Below, one piece after another: positions 3,189 through 44,379 of a stretch of DNA of 64,000 bases (positions within the stretch are counted from its first letter, which is position 1; every line of letters begins with the position of its first letter). The stretch is from Acinetobacter terrestris. GTDB taxonomy: Bacteria; Pseudomonadota; Gammaproteobacteria; Pseudomonadales; Moraxellaceae. The stretch is taken from positions 1-64,000 of the forward strand of contig NZ_SJNZ01000004.1 of assembly GCF_004331155.1 (NCBI RefSeq). The letters run 5' to 3'. The notes beneath the pieces are model-generated. The model was not told where the DNA came from. It saw nothing but the letters and a program-made list of their open reading frames with translations, and made no database searches. The translations under genes and the position numbers were made by a program.

Positions 3189-3281
3189 GGGCGACATGGA
3201 TGTCGCCCGCTGGACTGAGATATACGGATGTATCTTCAGTCCAGCAAAGGATTTTTGTTCCTTTTGATCCTTCAAAAGGAA
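3189..3281 (+). repeat. Three-hairpin intergenic element, copy A
   Basis: Three consecutive hairpins on the + strand. Hairpin 1: 8-bp perfect stem GGGCGACA/TGTCGCCC with loop TGGA (3189-3208). Hairpin 2: 9-bp outer stem CTGGACTGA/TCAGTCCAG, one unpaired T on the 3' side, inner stem GATA/TATC, loop containing CGGA (3210-3244). Hairpin 3: 10-bp stem TTCCTTTTGA/TCAAAAGGAA with a 4-base loop (3258-3281). A second element with the same layout but different stems is at 44067-44160. This copy sits between two leftward genes, so the strand carrying the GGA loops is antisense to the flanking transcript. Confidence 0.7.
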
Positions 3282-43913: not shown

Positions 43914-44379
43914 TTTTATTGATCTTGATATTATTTTTAACCATTTTTTTATGGGCATCAAAAATTCGTATCAATAAACCTTTTTCATCAGTCATTTTTT
44001 CAATTACGATAAATCGTTCGTAAAGCCAAAATTAAAAATAAATTTTAGCAGGTATTGGATTCATAAGTGTGGCATGGATGCCACACGTTTCCCATCACGA
44101 CAAGGAGGTCGTGTATGGGAAACAAAGGCTTTTGTCTACTTTTGACCTTTCAAAAGTAGAGGTAAGGCCTATGCGAAAGCATAAAAATTGAATCAATAAA
44201 TTGAGGCAGTGCTGGTTTTAAAGAATTGAACATTGTTTGATTTATGCAAGTTATCTAATATAAAACAGTATCGTAAGGTGAATCACTTTGCTGTAAATAA
44301 CCTTGCTTTTACCCGCTTGCATTCATTTATTTTTAACAGTACAACTGAATATAAATGACCTGTAGAACATAAAATCACA
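43914..44379 (+). other. Intergenic region holding structured element B
   Basis: No gene on either strand. The middle is occupied by the three-hairpin element (44067-44160). A further short hairpin with a GNRA loop, TATGC-GAAA-GCATA, is at 44170-44183. The remaining 200 bases before the thioesterase gene show nothing that I would call. Confidence 0.55.
44067..44160 (+). repeat. Three-hairpin intergenic element, copy B
   Basis: Hairpin 1: 8-bp perfect stem GTGTGGCA/TGCCACAC with loop TGGA (44067-44086). Hairpin 2: 9-bp outer stem GTTTCCCAT/ATGGGAAAC, one unpaired T on the 3' side, 6-bp inner stem CACGAC/GTCGTG, loop AAGGAG (44087-44123). Hairpin 3: 11-bp stem TCTACTTTTGA/TCAAAAGTAGA with a 4-base loop (44135-44160). 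It equals copy A (3189-3281) in layout and length (94 against 93 bases) while hairpin 1 and 2 stems are largely different. Flanking genes read rightwards, so here the GGA-bearing strand could be in the mRNA. Confidence 0.75.

Follow-up and report, generated by a model that had tools for sequence, protein, structure and literature searches.

The window analysed here is a 64,000-nucleotide stretch on contig 34 of the 3.29 Mb genome of Acinetobacter terrestris, and it contains two elements, at 44067 and 3189, that present GGA in successive hairpin loops of the forward strand. In the copy at 44067, hairpin 1 (44067–44086) has an 8-bp stem and a TGGA loop (GTGTGGCA-TGGA-TGCCACAC, loop context GCATGGATGC). 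It is followed by hairpin 2 (44087–44123), which combines a 9-bp outer stem, a 6-bp inner stem, the loop AAGGAG and a single unpaired T at 44114. Hairpin 3 (44136–44159; arms CTACTTTTG and CAAAAGTAG) carries the loop ACCTTT, and the linker preceding it is predicted to pair with this loop as a pseudoknot helix, AAAGG (44124–44128) with CCTTT (44146–44150), leaving a U-rich pseudoknot loop TTTTGT (44130–44135) of which TTTTG is the conserved part. The forward-strand copy at 3189 is built likewise, from hairpin 1 (3189–3208, loop TGGA, ACATGGATGT), hairpin 2 (3209–3245, loop ACGGAT, unpaired T at 3236) and hairpin 3 (about 3259–3280, loop ATCCTT), with putative pseudoknot strands AAGGAT (3247–3252) and ATCCTT (3267–3272). 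A preliminary description of this DNA had proposed that the two elements share one plan and that the stems of hairpins 1 and 2 differ in sequence while remaining paired, and reading both copies confirms both points. The pseudoknot between linker and hairpin-3 loop, the multi-copy family and the similarity beyond 94 bp were absent from that description.

The closest copies remain similar well past the 94-bp core, and for the copy at 44067 similarity to copies on other contigs and in other genomes spans 43975–44262. The full repeated unit of this subfamily may lie approximately at 43973–44267 (+ strand), with imperfect terminal inverted repeats (about 17/22 by eye) and, at one copy, GTATC as a possible 5-bp flank; both the ends and the flank were placed by eye and are tentative. 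The GGA strand folds better than its dinucleotide shuffles (z = −8.0 at 44067 and −6.45 at 3189, with 0/200 shuffles as good). Because the opposite strands also fold strongly (z = −8.8 and −9.4, respectively), the strand cannot be chosen from folding alone. Elsewhere in the window, 21364–21583 matches the Rfam small RNA AbsR11 (RF02608) with 166.2 bits.

A covariance model (A2, R1) built from nine own-genome copies gave 14 own-genome matches, of which nine are intact (107.9–122.5 bits) and five degenerate (30–68 bits). In a search of Acinetobacter genomes with this model, a kind of search that the preliminary description had suggested, 127 of 149 genomes, the own genome included, contain matches (E ≤ 0.001, up to 25 candidates scored per genome), and a deeper search of eleven genomes found from 8 to at least 30 matches in each. 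When the core pattern was scanned over genome contigs, all 56 matching stretches were from Acinetobacter. Four A. baumannii records in the plasmid collection match, and two A. baumannii records searched whole yielded eight and ten strong matches plus one weak match each; both weak matches belong to a second repeat family. The element is thus one copy of a genus-wide dispersed, structured intergenic repeat family. We met no description of it in the literature searched by titles and abstract openings, a search that left subscription journals mostly outside and does not imply that the repeat is unpublished. As to the collections themselves, NZ_CP077849.1, NZ_CP104448.1 and NZ_CP064203.1 are labelled plasmids, yet with 3.66–4.09 Mb they have the size of A. 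baumannii chromosomes and look like such. The phage-collection record H7 ‘Acinetobacter phage MD-2021a’ (among CAKLQF/CAKLQH, H5–H12) has the appearance of a bacterial contig, with chromosomal genes that include ubiB, rpmE2 and crcB.

Structural conservation was scored on an alignment (A3) of 108 matches giving 105 distinct rows from 13 genomes, its input being 100 of 216 loci, nearly all recruited by R1. It omits the five degenerate own-genome copies (L212–L216), most copies of genomes G081, G096 and G130, some of G065, one match each of G009, G017 and G117, and loci of other genomes, for example L031, L034, L035, L040–L042 and L046–L060. Its rows were fitted to the model and the copies are related, so that the cells are not independent events. 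Over the whole structure 95.9% of cells are paired, against 77.6% in shuffled alignments and 36–50% with slid partners. Covariation scores 0.499 against 0.147 for shuffles, none of which (0/500) reaches the observed value. Hairpin 2 is hypervariable, with 82 distinct 5′ arms; 98.8% of its cells are nevertheless paired, all 15 pairs have changed on both sides, and its unpaired base is T in 105/105 copies. The pseudoknot helix taken alone scores 0.388 against 0.139 when shuffled (0/500), and the register as drawn is the best, with 85.4% paired. Its weak side is that only four pairs changed on both sides, a number matched by 164/500 shuffles, and that the two outermost A-U pairs are without covariation, one being unpaired in 41 cells. 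In a separate test of 52 distinct linker/loop combinations the mean match was 3.58 against 2.13 for shuffles, whose maximum in 2000 was 2.79. These comparisons indicate that the linker before hairpin 3 pairs with the hairpin-3 loop, forming the predicted pseudoknot. TTTTG lies 5′ of hairpin 3 in 99/104 parsed copies and, speculatively, could form base triples with the A-U stem.

GGA is present in the hairpin-1 loop of 102/105 copies and in the hairpin-2 loop of 103/105, the latter count including three copies (L194, L195 and L157) in which an extra arm, CTTGCGCT...TGCTCAGGAT, is inserted in hairpin 2 and GGA is still kept in the longer arm; most of the 105 were recruited by a model that itself contains GGA. 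Sampling by the hairpin-3 pattern alone returned 13 own-genome places, seven of which are elements, all seven with GGA in both loops. Loss of the GGA loops from copies that keep their stems, which the preliminary description had named as refuting its reading, is not the pattern of this set; it is the stems that turn over. ANGGA occurs in both hairpins of 91/105 copies, and the ten-letter consensus used in the preliminary description in hairpin 1 of 38/105 and hairpin 2 of 57/105. The distance from GGA to GGA is 27–31 nt (99 copies measured). Taken alone, the loop motif GRCANGGANGYC is little enriched in the genome, with 30 places against 22 for the reversed control.

The mispairs are unevenly distributed. 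Hairpin 2 has 29 G·T and 3 A·C, hairpin 3 has 47 G·T (40 of them in one outer pair) and 3 A·C, and hairpin 1 has 28 G·T and 18 A·C, its weak outermost pair holding at least 15 of these A·C. From the large excess of G·T over A·C in hairpin 2 it follows that, of the two strands, the GGA-bearing one is under constraint in single-stranded form. Such an asymmetry fits RNA or one-strand DNA and is equally expected of both. A neutral dispersed palindrome whose pairing is kept only by DNA processes, such as quasi-palindrome correction or inter-copy conversion, could account for the scarcity of G-T intermediates relative to full compensations, and for the loci L038 and L056, which agree in their near flanks and in hairpin 3, nearly agree in hairpin 1 and differ wholly in hairpin 2. 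This reading is disfavoured by the G·T/A·C asymmetry, by the covariation of a pseudoknot that is not nested, and by the invariance of the loop letters and of the T bulge, and we consider it very improbable.

We inspected the nearest ORFs of 106 copies, using mechanical ORFs of at least 70 aa rather than curated genes. With the element read along its GGA strand, 44 copies lie between two neighbours on the opposite strand, 35 between convergent neighbours, 26 between two neighbours on the same strand as the element and one between divergent neighbours; 3/106 overlap an ORF spanning them. Between same-strand neighbours (44 against 26) the GGA strand is therefore more often antisense than sense. 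The window contains both arrangements, the copy at 44067 being sense to both neighbours and the copy at 3189 antisense to both. Copies avoid divergent promoters, and their orientation to genes is not fixed. Since 105/106 copies are downstream of at least one ORF, the repeat might be a transcribed 3′-end element of mRNA tails or read-through RNA that protects RNA ends or stops read-through between genes, its GGA loops having either a protein partner other than CsrA or no partner at all. The very stable fold and the retention of the U-rich pseudoknot loop are consistent with such a role. Avoidance of divergent promoters is however expected of any tolerated insertion, the window copies are without a U-tract terminator, and the conservation of GGA is left unexplained, which makes this an unlikely account. 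Simple consensus scans found neither a promoter-like site on the GGA strand nor a terminator at either window copy; two promoter-like sites on the other strand near 44067 were not above shuffle expectation.

Two motifs flank the core. The first, TTTACTATCGTGA, lies just 5′ of hairpin 1 in 48/106 copies at up to two mismatches (0.14 in shuffles), and the second, ATGAGGCWGTGC, about 21 nt past the core in 33/106 (0.12 in shuffles), both having been picked from the same copies on which they were scored. For a third motif, GCCTAYRCAAA, the scanned stretch showed no enrichment (3/106 against 1.54 in shuffles). A strict σ70 promoter inside the conserved 5′ motif is unsupported by the motif and promoter scans.

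The family has many copies at non-orthologous sites, and empty sites occur in relatives; it is in this sense a dispersed, insertion-polymorphic repeat. Occupancy was counted by eye from intergenic stretches at two loci, in genomes with both flanks aligned. At locus A the element is present in 2/20 genomes, one of the two copies having a further insertion within hairpin 3; the other 18 genomes lack it, and two of these carry a different gene at the site. At locus B it is present in 4/12 (one decayed) and lacking in eight, with the second family in its place in one of the eight; between orthologous copies, hairpins 2 and 3 show paired changes. Within A. baumannii, two records (L292 and L298) carry the element in opposite orientations at the locus between YeaC and a glycosyl transferase, by inversion or separate insertion; another locus is filled with a pair (L289) or empty (L299 and L300), and another holds either the element (L284) or a member of the second family sharing the 3′ pseudoknot module (L301). 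The second dispersed family, GTCATCYGCAACCTG...CAGGTTTTGCGGATGAC, which includes C3:62498 (L008) and C48:67089 (L017) in the own genome as well as L301 and L095, has a 3′ pseudoknot-like module in common with this element and can occupy its locus in other strains or species. A hairpin-forming stretch starting CTTGC(G/A)GACTCAAAATATATTTT was also seen inside a hairpin-3-like module, in genome G018 at locus A (L062) and at L094, as if it were a common insertion or variant module.

These observations suit a non-autonomous mobile element that moves via a folded single DNA strand, in the manner of IS200/IS605 or REP elements or of an integron-type substrate. A recombinase would then recognise the hairpins, the bulged T and the pseudoknot, and the GGA loops would serve this recognition instead of being CsrA sites. 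Its multiple copies, polymorphic insertion, opposite orientations at one A. baumannii locus and replacement by the second family at another all argue for mobility, and the one-strand asymmetry, the T bulge held in every copy of a hypervariable stem and the enriched 5′ motif (itself chosen from those copies) likewise fit this reading. IS608 hairpins have an extrahelical T, and insertion occurs next to TTAC. Against this, the Y1 transposase profile PF01797, which matches 5/14 control genomes, has no match in the own genome with its nine intact copies. Stem sequences also vary among copies of one genome, and we know of no REPs whose stems differ so between copies of one genome; and the same ANGGAN loop is kept on two different hairpins, a close fit to CsrA. 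We regard such a mobile element as the main rival explanation, possible though less likely than not. The preliminary description had named a REP-like mobile palindrome as its alternative, of which the multiple copies, the insertion polymorphism and the free orientation to genes support the mobility, whereas the lack of a Y1 match in the own genome speaks against the REP link; a RAYT/REP assignment was rejected on the same ground. An attC-like hairpin 2, suggested by its GTT..AAC outer pairs, was dropped as the polarity of attC sites is the reverse of this arrangement.

REP/BIME and BOX-type repeats are intergenic, palindromic and assembled from modules, and the present repeat resembles them in this; it differs in that its stem sequence varies from copy to copy and in the lack of a Y1 transposase family match in the own genome. 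MITEAba12 is likewise small, non-coding and dispersed in Acinetobacter; its length is mostly 113 bp, its 16-bp ends read GGCTTTGTTGCA(C/T)AAA, and its copies diverge little from one another (PMC6382973). The repeat has other ends, and its stems vary while the structure persists; MITEAba12 was rejected on ends and size. Among known RNAs of A. baumannii, C4 antisense RNA (Group 1 sRNAs, PMC5320573) was rejected for want of an Rfam C4 match. The Group 3 sRNAs of Weiss et al., four transcripts of 128–147 nt with a short conserved-loop hairpin followed by an extended hairpin (PMC5320573), resemble the repeat in plan. Copy spacing and strand in two chromosome-sized A. baumannii records, compared by hand with the AB5075 coordinates given there, did not agree with them, and identity with these sRNAs is unproven.

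The reading we favour, with confidence a little short of even, is that the repeat is a dispersed candidate CsrA/RsmA-binding RNA, whose transcription, binding of CsrA and sponge role we infer. It is preferred because the own genome has CsrA, because of a resemblance to TwoAYGGAY, and because two ANGGAN hairpins stand 27–31 nt apart. The covariation of hairpin 2 and of the whole structure, the GGA kept in both loops (also in all seven own-genome elements picked by the hairpin-3 pattern) and the G·T excess count for it as well. The own genome encodes an intact CsrA that is nearly identical over residues 1–57 to chain 1y00, which we take to be E. coli CsrA, and matches 2jpp, presumably an RsmE solved with RNA. 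The best Rfam resemblance is to TwoAYGGAY (RF01731), at 27.4–30.1 bits against a gathering score of 43 (best E 0.29, five own-genome loci), with no match at E ≤ 1 in ten further loci. Rfam clan CL00106 includes CsrB and TwoAYGGAY, and presumably also CsrC and RsmX/Y/Z. No Csr/Rsm model scored above cut-off in the window (gathering scores), in five own-genome loci (to E 5) or in ten other loci (to E 1). TwoAYGGAY is a candidate RNA from Weinberg 2010 (PMC2864571); it shares with the repeat two successive hairpins with AYGGAY loops, the second of about 15 pairs, whereas the model as printed is without the pseudoknot and T bulge that the repeat has.

With CsrB/CsrC and RsmX/Y/Z the repeat shares GGA in successive hairpin loops on one strand, in a host that has CsrA. 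It differs from them in having two sites per copy and many dispersed copies rather than one or a few fixed genes, in its 3′ pseudoknot, and in the window copies having no detected GGA-strand promoter or terminator. Under the favoured CsrA-binding reading the GGA strand would act in single-stranded, folded form, most probably as RNA, with hairpins 1 and 2 presenting ANGGAN loops on stems of nearly indifferent sequence. The 27–31 nt spacing would suit one CsrA/RsmA dimer, and the known range of CsrA site spacing accommodates such a pair. The 3′ U-rich pseudoknot would be a stabilising or end module. Many copies might jointly sequester CsrA, the role that CsrB, RsmY and RsmZ have in other systems, and the repeat may thus be a mobile CsrA sponge. 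Counting against the reading are features that CsrA leaves unexplained, namely the bulged T, the 5′ motif and the pseudoknot, together with the scans that found no GGA-strand promoter and no terminator at the window copies, the lack of a fixed orientation to genes, the variable presence, the opposite orientations at one A. baumannii locus and the second family at another, the weak enrichment of the loop motif by itself, the Rfam scores below threshold and the small number of full SELEX 12-mers (4/105 in hairpin 2 and 0/105 in hairpin 1). The SELEX consensus for CsrA is RUACARGGAUGU, in which ACA and GGA do not vary and the GGA occupies a hairpin loop (PMC4347634). The CsrA/RsmA reading of the preliminary description is thus partly supported, by the one-strand asymmetry, the CsrA gene and the loop consensus, while its mobile rival gains support too.

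A CsrA-binding RNA and a one-strand mobile DNA element are not mutually exclusive. It is conceivable, though we would not call it probable, that the family is a modular mobile repeat with a candidate CsrA-binding RNA as cargo: an exchangeable chassis of 5′ motif and 3′ U-rich pseudoknot would spread CsrA hairpin pairs, stems would be swapped as units, and sequestration would be set by the varying number of mobile copies and not by one CsrB gene. If it presents CsrA sites, a repeat scattered in this way would be a direct, testable candidate for what counters CsrA in Acinetobacter, and a global regulator would be tied to a mobile repeat. With a partner other than CsrA, the invariant T bulge, the freely changing paired stems and the covarying pseudoknot would still demand explanation. 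Within the genus, A. baumannii needs CsrA for growth on rich media (PMC12802169), and an inferred A. baylyi network includes a CsrB-like RNA, with a 2006 prediction paper cited (PMC12442408).
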